From: Aquirufa aurantiipilula
GTDB taxonomy: Bacteria; Bacteroidota; Bacteroidia; Cytophagales; Spirosomataceae
DNA length: 64,000 nucleotides
Direction of reading: 5' to 3'
Assembly (NCBI RefSeq): GCF_019923745.1
Contig: NZ_JAANOG010000004.1
Coordinates: 1 to 64,000 of the forward strand
Each line of letters begins with the position of its first letter. Position 1 is the first letter of the stretch. The notes beneath the pieces were generated by a model. The model searched no databases and was not told the origin of the DNA. It saw nothing but the letters and a program-made list of their open reading frames with translations. The position numbers and the translations under genes were made by a program. This document shows positions 7,906 to 14,416 of this stretch, piece after piece.

Positions 7906-7982
7906 ATTGATTTAGCTCAAAGAGGAAGGTGGAATATTAAAACAATTCGATGTAATTTCGGTTGAAATTGAAAACGGAAATC

Positions 7983-8414
7983 ATGGAAATACTATTGTGG
8001 CTAGGAACTTTTTTATTCATGGAGGGAATGGCCTGGTTTACCCACAAATACATCATGCACGGTATCATGTGGAATTGGCATGAGTCGCACCATGTCCATC
8101 ATAAAAATGTGTTGGAAAAAAATGATTTGTTTTCGGTGGTATTTGGCGTCATGTCAACCTTAACCATTATCATAGGTGCTGAAATGGAAGCTTATAGACC
8201 CTTATTGTGGATTGGCTTAGGGATAGCAACCTATGGGTTATGCTATTTCATCTTTCATGATATCATCGTACACAGAAGAATCAAAATCAAGTTTAAGACA
8301 AAAAATACCTATTTAAAACGCTTGATTAAAGCACATTATGTACACCATGAAGTGCATGAAAAAGAGGGCGCAGAAGCTTTCGGTTTCTTGTACGCCCCCA
8401 AAAAATACGAATAG
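7983..8414 (+). CDS. crtZ: Beta-carotene hydroxylase, CrtZ type (fatty acid hydroxylase superfamily)
   Basis: This is a 143-residue integral membrane di-iron hydroxylase. The histidine clusters that bind the two irons are all present: HKYIMH, HESHHVHH, HDIIVHRR and HYVHHEVH. Three to four membrane helices lie between them. CrtZ adds hydroxyl groups to beta-ionone rings, giving zeaxanthin from beta-carotene. The ATG at 7983 is used because the upstream extension begins at a TTG and adds nothing recognisable. A one-mismatch -7 element (TAATTTCG, 7953-7960) lies upstream. The gene is single, divergent from valS and convergent with cysN. No other carotenoid gene is in the window, so the rest of the pathway is elsewhere. 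Confidence 0.85.
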   Translation: MEILLWLGTFLFMEGMAWFTHKYIMHGIMWNWHESHHVHHKNVLEKNDLFSVVFGVMSTLTIIIGAEMEAYRPLLWIGLGIATYGLCYFIFHDIIVHRRIKIKFKTKNTYLKRLIKAHYVHHEVHEKEGAEAFGFLYAPKKYE

Positions 8415-8416
8415 GT

Positions 8417-9667
8417 TTATTTGACGAAACCTACTCCGACAGTTGAGTTCGAGAACTCATCAATTAATATAAAAGCGCCATTAGAAGGATTTTCTGCATA
8501 GACATCAGCCATGATAGGCTGGGCAGTCCGTAACTGAATTCCTCCAATTTCATTGAGTTTCATGGAATCCACATCTTGGCTAGATGTTTGTGCCACTACA
8601 TCCAATCGCTCAGTAATTTGTGAGATTTTGGCTTTGGTCAAGTTGACTCCGTGTTGTAATAAGTAGGTTTTCCCAGGACTTAATGCTTGATGGTCCAACC
8701 AGCATATATGAGCTGCAAAATCTTTTAATTGTGGAGCTTGGGTATCAGAGGCTAATACCAAAGAGTTTCCGCGTGAAATGTCAACATCAGTCGTTAAGGT
8801 AATAACAACCGAATCACCTGCTTCGGCACGCTCTAATTGCTCACCAAATTTTTCAATGGATGCAATGGTGCTTTCTTGTCCTGTAGGCAATGCTTTGATT
8901 ACATCCCCAACTTGAAAAGTTCCTGAACTAATTTTTCCAGCATAACCTCGGTAGTCGTGGTATTCTTCTGTTTTAGGGCGTATTACCCATTGAACAGGAA
9001 AACGGGCTGGAGCATGGGCGAGGCTTTCAGCAAATTCAAATGCTTCTAATTCCCCTAACAAGGTGTTTCCTTGATACCAAGGCATTTTATCTGCTGCTTG
9101 GGTGATGTTTTGTCCAAACAAAGAAGAAATAGGTAAAAAGCTAATTTCTTGACCTACAAAGGTGGTTTGGGCAACTAAAGAACGTAAGCTTTCTTTGATG
9201 GCTTCAAATTTGGCTTCATCGTATTGAACCAAATCCATTTTATTTACACAAATGATGACTTTGGGAATTCGTAGTAAAGCCGCAATGGATAGATGCCTGG
9301 CGGTTTGTTCTACAACACCTTGACGAGCATCCACTAAGATTAAAGAGACTTTGGCATTCGAAGCACCCGTAACCATGTTACGCGTATATTCTACGTGACC
9401 AGGAGTATCTGCAATGATGTATTTGCGCGTGGGTGTGGAGAAATAAATGTGCGCCACATCGATGGTGATGCCTTGTTCTCTTTCCGCTATTAAACCATCT
9501 GTTAAAAGAGAAAGATCTAAAAAATCTAATCTTTTTCTTTTGGAAGCACTTTCCAATGCTTCAATTTTATCTTTAGTAATTGAATTGGTTTCATACAATA
9601 ATCGACCAATCAATGTACTTTTTCCATCATCTACAGAACCTGCAGTAGCTATGCGTAAAATATCCAT
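8417..9667 (-). CDS. cysN: Sulfate adenylyltransferase subunit 1 (GTPase)
   Basis: This is a 416-residue EF-Tu-like GTPase. G1 is GSVDDGKST, the switch region EREQGITIDVAHIYF, G3 DTPGHVEYTRNM and G4 NKMD, followed by two beta-barrel domains. With CysD it forms ATP sulfurylase, which activates sulfate to adenosine 5'-phosphosulfate (APS) at the cost of GTP hydrolysis. The protein ends after the barrels, so it lacks the fused CysC APS kinase domain found in NodQ-type proteins. That agrees with the neighbouring reductase being an APS reductase, which needs no PAPS. It is the third gene of the cysH-cysD-cysN operon, 18 bp after cysD. Confidence 0.95.
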   Translation of the reverse strand: MDILRIATAGSVDDGKSTLIGRLLYETNSITKDKIEALESASKRKRLDFLDLSLLTDGLIAEREQGITIDVAHIYFSTPTRKYIIADTPGHVEYTRNMVTGASNAKVSLILVDARQGVVEQTARHLSIAALLRIPKVIICVNKMDLVQYDEAKFEAIKESLRSLVAQTTFVGQEISFLPISSLFGQNITQAADKMPWYQGNTLLGELEAFEFAESLAHAPARFPVQWVIRPKTEEYHDYRGYAGKISSGTFQVGDVIKALPTGQESTIASIEKFGEQLERAEAGDSVVITLTTDVDISRGNSLVLASDTQAPQLKDFAAHICWLDHQALSPGKTYLLQHGVNLTKAKISQITERLDVVAQTSSQDVDSMKLNEIGGIQLRTAQPIMADVYAENPSNGAFILIDEFSNSTVGVGFVK

Positions 9668-9685
9668 ATTCCTTTCTCTCTCCTA

Positions 9686-10606
9686 TTAAAAATATCCCTG
9701 TTGCTTTCTTTTTTCCATGGCGGCCTCGGAGCGCTTATCGTCGATACGGGCCCCGCGTTCTGAAATTTCCGCTGATAAAATCTCTTCAATGATGATGTCA
9801 ATTTCTACTGCATCTGATTCGACAGCAGCAGTACATGTCATATCTCCGACTGTTCTAAAGCGAACAGTGGCTTCAAATGGAATTTCATCGGCTTCTTTAT
9901 TCAAGTATTCTGAATCAGCCCAAAGCATCCCATCGCGCTCAATAACTTGGCGTTGGTGTGAGAAATAAATGCTTGGGATTTCCATTTTTTCTTCTTTAAT
10001 GTAATTCCACACGTCTAACTCTGTCCAATTGGAAATAGGGAAAACACGTACATTTTCGCCAACAGCAATACGACCATTTAACATATCAAATAGTTCAGGT
10101 CTTTGTCTTTTGGCATCCCATTGGCCAAAATCATCGCGAACAGAAAAGATACGTTCTTTAGCTCTCGCTTTTTCTTCATCTCTTCTGGCTCCACCGATAC
10201 AGGCATCGAATTTAAATTCTTCGATAGTATCTAATAAAGTGACTGTTTGTAGCACATTACGGGAGGCATATTTGCCTGTTTCTTCTTTGGCTTTTCCCTG
10301 GTCAATGGAATCTTGTACATAACGTACAATTAGCTCAGCTCCTGTTTCCTTGGCCAGCCAATCTCTAAACTCAATGGTTTCAGGGAAGTTATGTCCCGTA
10401 TCTATATGTACCAAGGGGAAAGGAATTTTCCCTGGGAAAAATGCTTTTTGGGCTAATCTAACTAAGGTAATGGAATCTTTACCTCCAGAAAATAGTAAAG
10501 CGGGACGCTCAAATTGGGCGGCAACTTCACGCATAATATAAATAGATTCATCCTCCAATTTTCTTGGAAACTGTCCTATTTTGTCCTTAATGGTTGAATT
10601 TGTCAT
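9686..10606 (-). CDS. cysD: Sulfate adenylyltransferase subunit 2
   Basis: This is a 306-residue adenylyltransferase of the PP-loop superfamily. The pyrophosphate loop is LLFSGGKDS (about residues 37-45). Other family blocks present are HIDTGHNFPET, CIGGARRDEEKARAKER and FPISNWTELDVWNYI. The C-terminus carries the typical RGARIDDKRSEAAMEKRKQQGYF. It catalyses APS formation together with CysN. Length and ends match the family. It lies between cysH (15 bp upstream) and cysN (18 bp downstream), all leftward. Confidence 0.97.
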   Translation of the reverse strand: MTNSTIKDKIGQFPRKLEDESIYIMREVAAQFERPALLFSGGKDSITLVRLAQKAFFPGKIPFPLVHIDTGHNFPETIEFRDWLAKETGAELIVRYVQDSIDQGKAKEETGKYASRNVLQTVTLLDTIEEFKFDACIGGARRDEEKARAKERIFSVRDDFGQWDAKRQRPELFDMLNGRIAVGENVRVFPISNWTELDVWNYIKEEKMEIPSIYFSHQRQVIERDGMLWADSEYLNKEADEIPFEATVRFRTVGDMTCTAAVESDAVEIDIIIEEILSAEISERGARIDDKRSEAAMEKRKQQGYF

Positions 10607-10621
10607 AAAATGGATAATAAA

Positions 10622-11314
10622 TTAGGCGTGTAAACCACATTCTTTTTGGGAGTTTTCCCACCACCATCTTCCTGCCCTTGGATGCTCTCCTTCAGCAATG
10701 GCTCGAGTACAAGGTGCGCAGCCAATGGAGATAAATCCTTTTTTGTGCAATGGGTTTTGCGGTATTTTATGGTCAACTAAATATTGATTTAATTCATCAA
10801 ATGTCCAATCAATCAAAGGGTTAATTTTGATCAATTTTCTTTGTTCATCCCATTCTACAATAGGCATATTGGCTCTGTTTTCAGATTGCTCAGCTCGTAA
10901 TCCAGTAATCCAAACTTTTGCTCCTTGCAAAGCTCGGGATAAAGGTTCCATTTTACGAATAAAGCAACATTCTTTTCTGTTTTCTACCGAACTATAAAAT
11001 GAGTTGAAGCCCTTTTCCTTGACTAGTTTCTCTACCGATTCCGTTTTTGGGAAATAAGTATCAATCGTAATTTGATACTTTCTGCTTGTCAAATCCATTA
11101 ACTCATAGGACTCTTGAAATTGACGGCCTGTATCTAAAGTGAACAGGTGAATGGGAAGAGATTGGCTAGCAATGGCATATAAAATAGCCTGATCTTCTTG
11201 TCCAAAAGAAGTAGAAAATACAATTTTCTCCTGAGGGAATAATTGAGTTAATACCTGCAATCGTTCTTCTAGGGAGAGATTTAATAAGGCTTTTTCAATG
11301 GTTGAAATATCCAT
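10622..11314 (-). CDS. cysH: Assimilatory APS reductase (CysH family, iron-sulfur type)
   Basis: This is a 230-residue thioredoxin-dependent reductase that converts APS to sulfite. It has the PP-loop-like FSTSFGQEDQ, the fingerprint ITGLRAEQSENR and the C-terminal catalytic motif ECGLH. Two cysteine pairs are visible, CC in RKECCFIRK and CxxC in GCAPC. These pairs mark the [4Fe-4S] APS reductases and are missing from PAPS reductases. The enzyme therefore probably uses APS directly, which explains the absence of an APS kinase here. The ATG at 11314 is preferred over 11341, since the extra nine residues are not part of the fold. It is first in the sulfate operon; sulfite reductase is not in the window. 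Confidence 0.93.
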   Translation of the reverse strand: MDISTIEKALLNLSLEERLQVLTQLFPQEKIVFSTSFGQEDQAILYAIASQSLPIHLFTLDTGRQFQESYELMDLTSRKYQITIDTYFPKTESVEKLVKEKGFNSFYSSVENRKECCFIRKMEPLSRALQGAKVWITGLRAEQSENRANMPIVEWDEQRKLIKINPLIDWTFDELNQYLVDHKIPQNPLHKKGFISIGCAPCTRAIAEGEHPRAGRWWWENSQKECGLHA

Positions 11315-11441
11315 ACTCTTAAAATTTTCACAAAAATACACAATGTCTATTGAATTGCTATACTTGATTTTAAAAAGATTTACAAGACTTCATATGAAGG
11401 AAATAAATCTTTTGTAAATTCATCACAATAAACAAAGTAGG

Positions 11442-12137
11442 ATGTATCAAGGCTCAGAGATTTGGATGAATGAGGGAATGGAGGATGATAAATCTCCTTT
11501 TTTGGACTTGAAAGCAATAAAAAGCTTGGTAAAGCAAGGTGAAGGGCATCGCTTGGAGTTTAAAATGAAAGTTAAATTTCCAGAAAAGATTATCAAGGAA
11601 ATGGTAGCTTTTGCCAATACAGACGGAGGGACGCTCTTAGTTGGGGTAAGTGATGAGGGCCAGGTACAAGGAGTGAAGTTTGTGGATGAAGAACAATTCC
11701 TATTAGATCGTGCCATTGAGAAGTATTGTTTTCCTGTTTTTTCCTATACCAATTATCGAGTTGAAATTGATTCTCAAAGAGCTATTTTAGTTTATCATAT
11801 ATTTCCTAGTATCGATAAACCGCATTTTGTGCAATTATCCGATGAACCACAGCCTAAGTGTTATGTGCGCATTAAAGATCGTACGGTACAGGCGAGTAAG
11901 GAAATGAAACAAATATTGAGACGGGAAAATGAAGAGGGAATTCAATTTAATTTTGGTCCATCTGAAAAATGGTTGATGGAGTATTTGCATGAAAATCAAC
12001 AGATTACATTAGCTTTGTTTGCAGAGAAGCAATCCTTACCACTTTGGCTAGCTTCAAGAAAATTAGTTCTATTAGTTTTGGCACGTGTTTTACGTATTTT
12101 GCCAGGCGAAGTATACGATATTTATACCTTACGATGA
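11442..12137 (+). CDS. AlbA_2 (Schlafen-like) domain protein
   Basis: This 231-residue protein has an AlbA_2-type domain in roughly residues 30-160. The defining core is present: EGHRLEFKMK, then KEMVAFANTDGGTLLVGVSDEGQVQGV, and CYVRIKDRTVQAS. The domain occurs in putative nucleic-acid-binding regulators and, in eukaryotes, in Schlafen nucleases. The C-terminal part (GPSEKWLMEYLHENQQITLALFAEK) resembles a small winged helix. The function is unknown. Its stop codon overlaps the ATG of the next gene (ATGA at 12134-12137), so the two are probably translationally coupled. ATG 11442 is used; an ATG at 11466 is an alternative. Confidence 0.8.
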   Translation: MYQGSEIWMNEGMEDDKSPFLDLKAIKSLVKQGEGHRLEFKMKVKFPEKIIKEMVAFANTDGGTLLVGVSDEGQVQGVKFVDEEQFLLDRAIEKYCFPVFSYTNYRVEIDSQRAILVYHIFPSIDKPHFVQLSDEPQPKCYVRIKDRTVQASKEMKQILRRENEEGIQFNFGPSEKWLMEYLHENQQITLALFAEKQSLPLWLASRKLVLLVLARVLRILPGEVYDIYTLR

Positions 12138-13507
12138 AAAACAGTTATTGGGCATTATTTGCTTTAATCATGCTTTTTTCTGCTTGCACCAAGCAATCAG
12201 TTGAGCCTGTTAATTCACCCAATCCAGCTAGTTCGCTGACCTCTTCATTTGATTTAATTCAGGATCGCATATTTACGCCAACTTGTGCCACTTCGGGATG
12301 TCATCTTTCTAATACTGATGCTTCTTTTGCACAGCACGGTTTAATACTAGCAAAATCTTCTTCATATGCACAGTTGGTAGGAGTGGCTTCTAAAAACCCG
12401 AATGCCGTTCTCAATAAAATTTTACGAGTTACCAAGTTTCAGTCTACCCAAAGTTTACTGTATCATAAATTAAATTGGGATGTAGCGCATCATTCTAGTA
12501 TTGATTATGGTGTACCCATGCCCTTGGGAGGGAAGCCCCTTTCTGTTGGTCAATTGAAATTTATTCAAAATTGGATTGAGGCTGGAGCCCCAGAAAAAGG
12601 GGAAGTTGCCGATGCCAAATTATTAGATGATACCACCCCGAGTTATGCTGTTAGTTCCGATTTTAGTCCTTTAATAGAACCTTCTGCTGAAGGAAAGGAA
12701 GGGATTCAATTGAAAGTTGAGAAATTTTCTGTGGCACCAAATTTTGAACGTGAGTTGTTTGTGCGCAAGCCATTGAATAATTCTGCACCTGTGTATGTTT
12801 CGCGGATCAAGTTAAAGTCAAGACCTAATAGCCATCACATGGTCTTGTACGATTTTGAAAGTAAACAGTCTTTACCAAATCTGAATGAAGTAAGAGATTT
12901 ACGAAACAGTGATAATAGCATTAACGTGTTTACTTTCCTGCAGATGCAAAACCACATTTTTTTAGGGGGAGGTACGGATCCTAATTCAGATTATTCTTTT
13001 CCTGAAGGAACTGCTCTACTGCTTCCTGCCAATAGTTCGATTGATTTGAACCCACATTACTTTAATAAAACCAACGAAGTAATCTTTGGAGAGAACTATG
13101 TCAATCTATATACCGTGAAAGCCGATCAGGTGAAAAAAGTGGTACAAATGATTGATTTTAATAATACCAATTTGACGATACCTGCCAATCAAAAGACCGT
13201 TATTTCTAAAGATTTTATTTTTGATAAAGCAGTAGCCATCGTTTCATTAACCTCTCATACCCATCAGTGGGGCAAGTTATTTCAGATTAAAATCAAAGGT
13301 GGTGCCCGGAATGGAGAGGTGATTTATGAAAGTACAGACTGGGCGCACCCTACTGTCATTAATTTTCCCAAAGTGATTGAGCTAAAAGCAGGAGAGGGAT
13401 TAACTTCGGTGGTTACCTATGAAAATAATACGAATCGCATCATCCGTTTTGGTTTAACTTCCGAAGACGAGATGAACATCATATTTGGATATTACTACGC
13501 ACTTTAA
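12134..13507 (+). CDS. Lipoprotein joining a cytochrome c-like domain to a PHM/DBM-type copper monooxygenase module
   Basis: This is a 457-residue lipoprotein (lipobox LFSAC, Cys18). Residues ~40-155 look like a cytochrome c domain: a CX4CH heme site (C51, C56, H57) and a distal Met region GVPMPLGGKPLS followed by FIQNWIEAGAP. Residues ~190-457 follow the two-domain copper type II ascorbate-dependent monooxygenase fold. Every copper ligand position is filled. CuH would be H234-H235 (SHHMVLYD, compare VHHMLLFG of PHM) and H308 (NPHYF). CuM would be H375 and H377 (HTHQWGK, compare HTHHLGK) and M447 (DEMNIIFGYYY, compare DEMCNLYIMYY). The comparison is from memory of animal PHM. The substrate is unknown; the heme domain may replace ascorbate as electron donor (inference). 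The ATG at 12134 is chosen because it starts the signal peptide and overlaps the upstream stop. Confidence 0.85.
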   Translation: MKNSYWALFALIMLFSACTKQSVEPVNSPNPASSLTSSFDLIQDRIFTPTCATSGCHLSNTDASFAQHGLILAKSSSYAQLVGVASKNPNAVLNKILRVTKFQSTQSLLYHKLNWDVAHHSSIDYGVPMPLGGKPLSVGQLKFIQNWIEAGAPEKGEVADAKLLDDTTPSYAVSSDFSPLIEPSAEGKEGIQLKVEKFSVAPNFERELFVRKPLNNSAPVYVSRIKLKSRPNSHHMVLYDFESKQSLPNLNEVRDLRNSDNSINVFTFLQMQNHIFLGGGTDPNSDYSFPEGTALLLPANSSIDLNPHYFNKTNEVIFGENYVNLYTVKADQVKKVVQMIDFNNTNLTIPANQKTVISKDFIFDKAVAIVSLTSHTHQWGKLFQIKIKGGARNGEVIYESTDWAHPTVINFPKVIELKAGEGLTSVVTYENNTNRIIRFGLTSEDEMNIIFGYYYAL

Positions 13508-13555: not shown

Positions 13556-14416
13556 ATGGATCAGAAAATTATTAACCTGTTTGATGAGTACACCCACAAA
13601 CCATTAAAAAGGGAAGTGTTTTTAGCTAAGTTGAGCAAATTAGCTGGTGGAACAGCGGCGGCATTAGCTATTTTACCTATGTTAGAAGGCAATTATGCCA
13701 TGGCCAATCAAGTATCTGTACAAGATGCCGATTTATTGATGGAGGATGTTTCATATCCTTCAAAAAACTGTACCATGAAAGGGTATTTGGTACAGCCTAA
13801 ATTATCCAAAGGGAAATTAGGCGCTGTATTGGTTATCCATGAAAACAGAGGATTAACCCCACACATCAAAGATGTTACCCGTCGAATTGCTAAAGCAGGA
13901 TACATTGCTTTAGGTATTGATGCGCTTTCTCCTTTTGGAGGAACACCAGTCAATGAAGATGAAGGACGCGCTTTGTTTGCTAAATTAGACGCAGTTCAAA
14001 ATTTAGAAAATATTAAGAGCGGTCTTGATTATTTACGAGGATTGAAAAACAGCAATAAGAAAACCGGTGTCGTTGGATTCTGTTGGGGTGGAGGCATGGT
14101 CAATTCCATGGCTGTGATGGATCCTGAGTTAACTGCTGCGGTGGCTTATTATGGTCGACAAGCCGAAGTGGCTGATGTGCCAAAAATAAAAGCCAAGTTA
14201 ATGCTTCAATATGCTGGTTTAGACGAAAGAATAAATGCTGGAATTCCTGCATTTGAAGAAGCATTGAAAGCCAATAAGAAGGATTATCAAATCTTCGTAT
14301 ACGAAGGAGCGCAACATGCTTTTAATAATGATTCTTCACCTGCACGCTACAATGCAGAAGTGGCCAAGTTGGCTTGGACAAGAACCATGGGTTTATTTGA
14401 CCAAACATTGAAATAG
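13556..14416 (+). CDS. Dienelactone hydrolase family protein, exported
   Basis: This is a 286-residue alpha/beta hydrolase. The catalytic triad of the family is visible: the nucleophile Cys in GVVGFCWGGGM, Asp in AGLDERINAG and His in GAQHAFNND. An N-terminal hydrophobic stretch after KREVFLAKLSKLAGG (about residues 30-47) suggests export or membrane anchoring, with a weak Tat-like look but no twin arginine. Homologues hydrolyse lactones or esters; many are of unknown substrate. It follows the copper-monooxygenase lipoprotein by 48 bp and is closed by a terminator, so it is likely the last gene of that transcription unit. A shared pathway is possible but unproved. Confidence 0.87.
   Translation: MDQKIINLFDEYTHKPLKREVFLAKLSKLAGGTAAALAILPMLEGNYAMANQVSVQDADLLMEDVSYPSKNCTMKGYLVQPKLSKGKLGAVLVIHENRGLTPHIKDVTRRIAKAGYIALGIDALSPFGGTPVNEDEGRALFAKLDAVQNLENIKSGLDYLRGLKNSNKKTGVVGFCWGGGMVNSMAVMDPELTAAVAYYGRQAEVADVPKIKAKLMLQYAGLDERINAGIPAFEEALKANKKDYQIFVYEGAQHAFNNDSSPARYNAEVAKLAWTRTMGLFDQTLK

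Follow-up and report, generated by a model that had tools for sequence, protein, structure and literature searches.

What supplies the electrons to a bacterial copper monooxygenase of the PHM/DBM type is the question raised by a lipoprotein gene in a 64,000-nucleotide stretch of DNA from the freshwater bacterium Aquirufa aurantiipilula, hereafter the window (host genome 3.08 Mb; Cytophagales, Bacteroidota). PHM (peptidylglycine alpha-hydroxylating monooxygenase) and DBM are textbook enzymes through which animals make hormones and neurotransmitters, and long-range electron transfer between their coppers is debated. In PHM, each copper receives one electron from ascorbate, the coppers lie 11 Å apart in most structures, and O2 is bound at CuM (PMC6123673). 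In the bacterial gene (12134–13507, +; 457 aa), recognized from its open reading frame, a PF03712 match, a predicted model and fold matches, a putative c-type heme domain precedes the copper core. On balance, the product is probably a heme-fed two-copper C–H monooxygenase on an envelope lipoprotein, with the built-in heme replacing ascorbate.

The first-pass annotation had placed the gene at these coordinates, and the open reading frame, stop codon and every residue number it gave are correct. Its reading of a fused protein holds for the PHM/DBM-type core, the six ligands, the lipoprotein and the CXnCH domain, but not for the roles it offered to the neighbouring AlbA_2 and dienelactone hydrolase genes. 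The frame also opens at TTG 12044 in the mechanical list of open reading frames, giving a longer frame; the start is placed at ATG 12134, which forms an ATGA overlap with the stop codon of AlbA_2, because this choice yields a lipoprotein signal sequence common to the homologs. This signal peptide (12134–12187, +) carries the lipobox FSAC, with Cys18 as the predicted lipidation site. The protein contains only three cysteines, at residues 18, 51 and 56. Its nearest named relatives are proteins of Aquirufa species (86–94% identity). No NCBIfam model scored above its cut-off for the protein, and a search of a plasmid collection returned no match.

A search of GTDB species genomes matched 367 stretches, and the 80 best of them were retained for locus analysis; the window protein and homologs from 62 of these loci form a 63-row alignment. 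Cys18, which had been claimed as a lipid tether and is indeed present, is identical in 63/63 rows, as are C51, C56, H57, M129 and all six copper ligands. The 18 loci outside the alignment are mostly near-duplicates, together with L086, L098 and L103 (cut or of unsure start); among these 18, the heme motif occurs in 17, and the copper-ligand motifs occur in all except for the Met of L086, where the contig ends first. The same residues are also identical in 16/16 proteins of a wider alignment of class A, the class of the window protein; the other proteins in it share 36–69% identity with the window protein. One homolog (G509:C12:128296–129641, +) appears as two matches that overlap each other, one to the beginning and one to the end of the profile, a frameshift or sequencing error.

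The ligand role of the HH, H, HxH and M positions is known from PHM and DBH. All six ligands are present in the window protein in the order first claimed (HH234–235, H308, H375 and H377 of HTH375–377, M447). By family resemblance, His234-His235 (12833–12838, +) and His308 (13055–13057, +) would bind CuH, while His375-x-His377 (13256–13264, +) and, through its thioether, Met447 (13472–13474, +) would bind CuM; the first pair is placed from alignments and from class-B homologs compared with DBH, and the others from alignments and a DBH profile match. The two Pfam copper-domain profiles proposed as a check gave a divided answer: PF03712 (Cu2_monoox_C) matches residues 364–455 (13223–13498, +; 28.8 bits, cut-off 23), but PF01082 has no match at E <= 1, either in the window protein or in 16/16 class-A homologs. 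PF03712 matches all 16 class-A rows at E <= 1, and two of the five scanned singly exceed the cut-off. The PF03712 proteins of the phylum with CTSCH...MPPW-type N-termini and about 440–540 aa are referred to as class B; they match PF01082 at E <= 1 in 7/10 rows, and their alignment with DBH covers the HH, HY, HxH and EM positions (E 1.7e-7). A profile of the 16 class-A proteins finds DBH in the PDB at E 0.0038, with H308, HxH and M447 falling on DBH's HY, HTH and EM, and its next matches are non-significant (nicking endonuclease, E 0.054; FoxE, E 0.15). PHM itself was not found in the PDB by the class-A or the class-B profile at E <= 10. Shuffling the mature chain 200,000 times produced a CX2-4CH on 70 occasions and, on 84, a pattern of ligands in this order with loose spacing; the conservation of ligands and motif (63/63, 16/16) is stronger evidence than this test.

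The fold agrees with the ligand pattern. A full-length predicted model built from the 63 sequences (mean pLDDT 86.5, pTM 0.78) is helical in its N-terminal part and strand-rich in the remainder, and it shows the two-domain PHM/DBH fold that the first annotation had called for: the 31 best of 1623 Foldseek matches in the PDB are human DBH or PHM, at E values from 2.6e-13 (4zel, DBH) to 4.8e-9 and rmsd of 4.0–8.2 Å, while rank 32 is a phage capsid (E 1.9e-5). All solved DBH and PHM structures among the 50 PDB matches listed are animal proteins. TM scores by target length are 0.39–0.40 for DBH and 0.58–0.66 for PHM (29 entries, ranks 3–31); those by query length are just 0.40–0.47, which, like the rmsd, counts against the match. 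With PHM, the window protein shares this fold and all six copper-ligand positions. DBH (dopamine beta-hydroxylase, 4zel) is the best fold match and the sole chain with a plausible sequence match, and in both proteins an N-terminal domain precedes the core; however, this is a DOMON domain in DBH and a putative c-type heme domain in the window protein, whose copper core forms the end of the chain. Support for a PHM/DBM core is good, and this core belongs to a known fold family, since a Pfam copper domain already covers such proteins.

The putative heme domain spans residues 36–168 (12239–12637, +), as delimited by a domain model and searches. In a sample of 296 Bacteroidota genomes, PF03712 was matched at E <= 0.001 in 29, with 32 matches, 29 of them above the family cut-off. 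CXnCH is present in 31 of these 32 genes, and the remaining one (L054) is truncated where its contig stops. Fusion of a heme motif to PF03712 is the rule in this sample and no curiosity of the window. Class-B proteins share the domain order of the window protein and are homologous to it throughout: heme domain and core aligned together give a probability of 99.4 (E 2.1e-21), and the heme domains alone give 85 (E 5.8e-6), with the candidate distal Met not aligned. They differ from the window protein in having canonical CXXCH, a type IX sorting tail in 8/10, and a redoxin gene alongside (three loci) or a redoxin domain fused to the protein (one). The adjoining redoxin genes are L172:5065–5655 (−), L177:4677–5258 (+) and L178:5191–5856 (−), at 32.7, 32.6 and 30.5 bits (cut-off 26.6); in L055 the redoxin domain is fused at the N-terminus (29.3 bits). 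By eye, the redoxin-associated class-B proteins have a GC-hydrophobic motif in common at their C-termini. Redoxin is a possible third redox partner of class-B proteins.

A fusion this regular also bears on whether the heme is the electron donor at all. The copper core could be an oxygenase that takes its electrons from a small-molecule reductant, with the heme acting as a sensor or feeding another partner. The heme-like domain does exist on its own in relatives, as stand-alone 171-aa lipoproteins with the CX4CH/MPL domain only (L144:5476–5991, −; L146:5631–6146, +); both end at the domain boundary, and neither of these two stretches, out of five fetched, has a PHM gene beside it. In addition, genomes G407 and G436 each have one family-profile match, which covers the heme domain alone. 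This arrangement is nevertheless unlikely, given that the fusion recurs in 31/32 PF03712 matches and across two divergent classes.

The heme itself is predicted from motif and conservation. The CX4CH motif CATSGCH at residues 51–57 (12284–12304, +) and a distal Met region had been claimed at the outset; both are there and conserved, with the invariant Met129 of MPLGG (12518–12520, +; 63/63, 16/16) as the likely distal ligand. CX4CH occurs in 79/80 of the nearest loci, the remaining one being cut at its contig start. Across the 16 class-A proteins, a single alignment position carries CX4CH in 11, CX2CH in four (L031, L044, L046, L052) and CX3CH in one (L057). This interchange with canonical CXXCH is the strongest sequence argument for heme here and, together with the invariant Met, points to a heme-binding domain. 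Fold comparison does not prove that the domain is a cytochrome: modelled in isolation, it is confidently predicted (pLDDT 90.5) and has no significant fold match in the PDB (best hydrazine synthase, E 0.74), and in the full-length model residues 52–55, within the heme motif, have pLDDT < 50. The cytochrome profile anticipated by the first annotation did not appear either, as the N-terminal domain of the window protein, whether searched within the whole chain or cut out, has no Pfam cytochrome match at E <= 1. The 16 class-A domains, when cut out, yield weak matches to PSCyt1 (two), Cytochrom_C (two), Cytochrom_C550 (two) and Cytochrome_CBB3 (one), the best at 0.0087. PF06934, the fatty acid cis/trans isomerase family (CTI), weakly matches the distal-Met region in 5/16 whole class-A proteins and 8/16 cut-out domains; membership of this family was rejected, with a best score of 18.5 bits against a cut-off of 25.

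The missing profile and fold matches leave room for a site that is not a heme site but a disulfide or another metal site, in a domain that serves for binding or docking. This is improbable. Homologs carry canonical CX2CH or CX3CH at the same position, Met129 is invariant, and class-B N-terminal domains match Haem_bd and Cytochrome_CBB3 in 10/10 and Cytochrom_C in 7/10 at E <= 1. Furthermore, the genome encodes Ccm genes: CcmE (45.1 bits, cut-off 24.6) and two Cytochrom_C_asm matches, one of them within a CcmF-like protein (PF16327, 23.5 bits, cut-off 28.7). It also has 18 matches to Cytochrome_CBB3, 10 of them above cut-off. By eye, the CcmE of the window genome (L142:758–1207, +) carries CPSKY, which is of the CXXXY type as opposed to HXXXY. 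Cytochrome c3 is a Desulfovibrio protein. CX4CH is described as a known variant of the heme motif, two of which occur in cytochrome c3 (PMC10454114), and CcmE of the CXXXY type is reported from archaea and Desulfovibrio (PMC9084895). The co-occurrence of the two in Desulfovibrio parallels the window genome and is suggestive only.

Neither neighbour that had been put forward as a partner is judged a functional part of the system. The upstream gene encodes an AlbA_2 (Schlafen) protein (11442–12137, +; PF04326, 75.3 bits) that overlaps the monooxygenase start codon. A neighbour survey took in the window and the 80 nearest loci; contig ends cut several of these 81, so that counts are lower bounds. 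An AlbA_2 gene lies near the monooxygenase gene in at least 33 loci, and 21 loci have a different upstream gene. AlbA_2 was found in 36/38 genomes of the genus; of the eight genus genomes that gave no monooxygenase match, seven have it (G002, G007, G013, G019, G021, G023 and G030). The proposed role as a dedicated regulator is rejected on this basis, other genes standing upstream elsewhere. Downstream, a dienelactone-hydrolase-family gene (YghX-like; 13556–14416, +; PF01738, 151.3 bits; NF041440, 325 bits, below the cut-off of 460) was suggested as a partner enzyme, yet it stands beside the gene in just 5/80 loci, all from the closest relatives; with the window itself, this makes at least 6/81.

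The wider survey of conserved neighbours recommended by the first annotation revealed no conserved substrate or pathway neighbour. Among 32 further loci (gene found in 31), no cluster common to at least three loci joins distant class-A loci; the one class-A cluster set (L154, L155, L160) belongs to one genus, and three class-B loci share the redoxin gene. It seems that the monooxygenase lipoprotein acts with no operon partner dedicated to it, in keeping with an electron supply of its own. Three opposite-strand genes at 8417–11341 of the window, by eye similar to CysN, CysD and CysH, are found again in 26, 30 and 31 of 81 loci, respectively; this block is lineage synteny, unrelated to the monooxygenase. 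Also by eye, a short His-rich membrane protein at 7962–8414 (+) resembles carotenoid hydroxylase.

Within the genus, a monooxygenase match is present in 29/37 genomes, the window's own included, with some matches being fragments at contig ends; it was not found in eight, of which some are incomplete and three are at least 96% complete. Among relatives overall, a match is present in 35/59 genomes. A profile search of the family sample (E <= 0.001) matched 149/200 genomes and 31/36 genera, both counts including heme-domain-only matches and a few weak ones.

The core departs from PHM in several respects. The peptide-binding residues of PHM, Arg240, Asn316 and Tyr318, are not kept: when matched by their offset from the ligands, the corresponding residues are Thr373, Ile449 and Phe451, of which the first is T in 53 and F in 10 of the 63 rows and the other two are identical in 63/63. 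The window protein is also unlike PHM in its N-terminal heme-like domain and in the absence of any PDB sequence match to PHM. DBH is reported to have two disulfides per copper domain (PMC4846438); core disulfides are impossible in the window protein, given cysteines at 18, 51 and 56 only. As the ligands are all kept while the PHM pocket residues are changed and core disulfides are lacking, the protein is therefore read as a PHM/DBM-type monooxygenase with a different substrate. A copper protein that has the PHM fold but is no hydroxylase, and serves copper storage or delivery, peroxide use or O2 sensing, would accord with the altered pocket, the lack of conserved pathway neighbours and the gene's patchy presence (29/37 genus genomes; not found in three at least 96% complete), but it is very improbable, as the two sets of copper ligands, Met included, are strictly conserved, which catalysis would require and storage would not.

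In the heme-fed reading, the lipoprotein would sit in the envelope, probably facing the periplasm. Its N-terminal c-type heme would take single electrons from the periplasmic cytochrome pool and pass them on to CuH of the PHM/DBM-fold core, and CuM would bind O2 and hydroxylate a C–H bond in a small molecule or a peptide. The binding of heme and of two coppers, the route of the electrons, the hydroxylation and the placement in the envelope are all inferred; a bound heme that supplies the coppers is plausible. Two systems offer parallels. The CDH/LPMO pair has a b-type heme, one copper and a fold unrelated to PHM. There, a heme domain reduces a copper monooxygenase (PMC5987398). As in the proposed scheme, a heme domain acts as reductant of a copper monooxygenase outside the cytoplasm, although CDH and LPMO are two separate proteins. 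The DOMON domain of DBH is the other parallel: in other proteins, domains of this class bind heme or sugar, while a pocket search of DBH's own, as reported in the same source as its disulfides, found none (PMC4846438). By analogy with both, heme-to-copper transfer within the window protein is plausible.

A search of the open-access literature, with subscription journals outside its scope, found no description of a fused heme that serves as electron source or of its near-universality in the phylum sample, and a look for bacteria, prokaryotes or archaea in a PAM review gave no passage (PMC6529398). The copper core fold family is the known part of this finding; what appears new is the heme fusion as a proposed electron source, near-universal in the phylum sample. 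More tentatively, Bacteroidota may possess an extensive and so far undescribed family of two-copper monooxygenases that reduce themselves, with a fused c-type heme as the original electron donor for the PHM/DBM fold, the animal enzymes having lost the heme and adopted ascorbate. Bacteria may feed PHM/DBM-type enzymes from a built-in heme and not from vitamin C. If true, a bacterial heme-fused version would explain how the PHM/DBM fold works without ascorbate, add a family of C–H hydroxylases, and provide a genetically tractable system with an optical handle on electron delivery.
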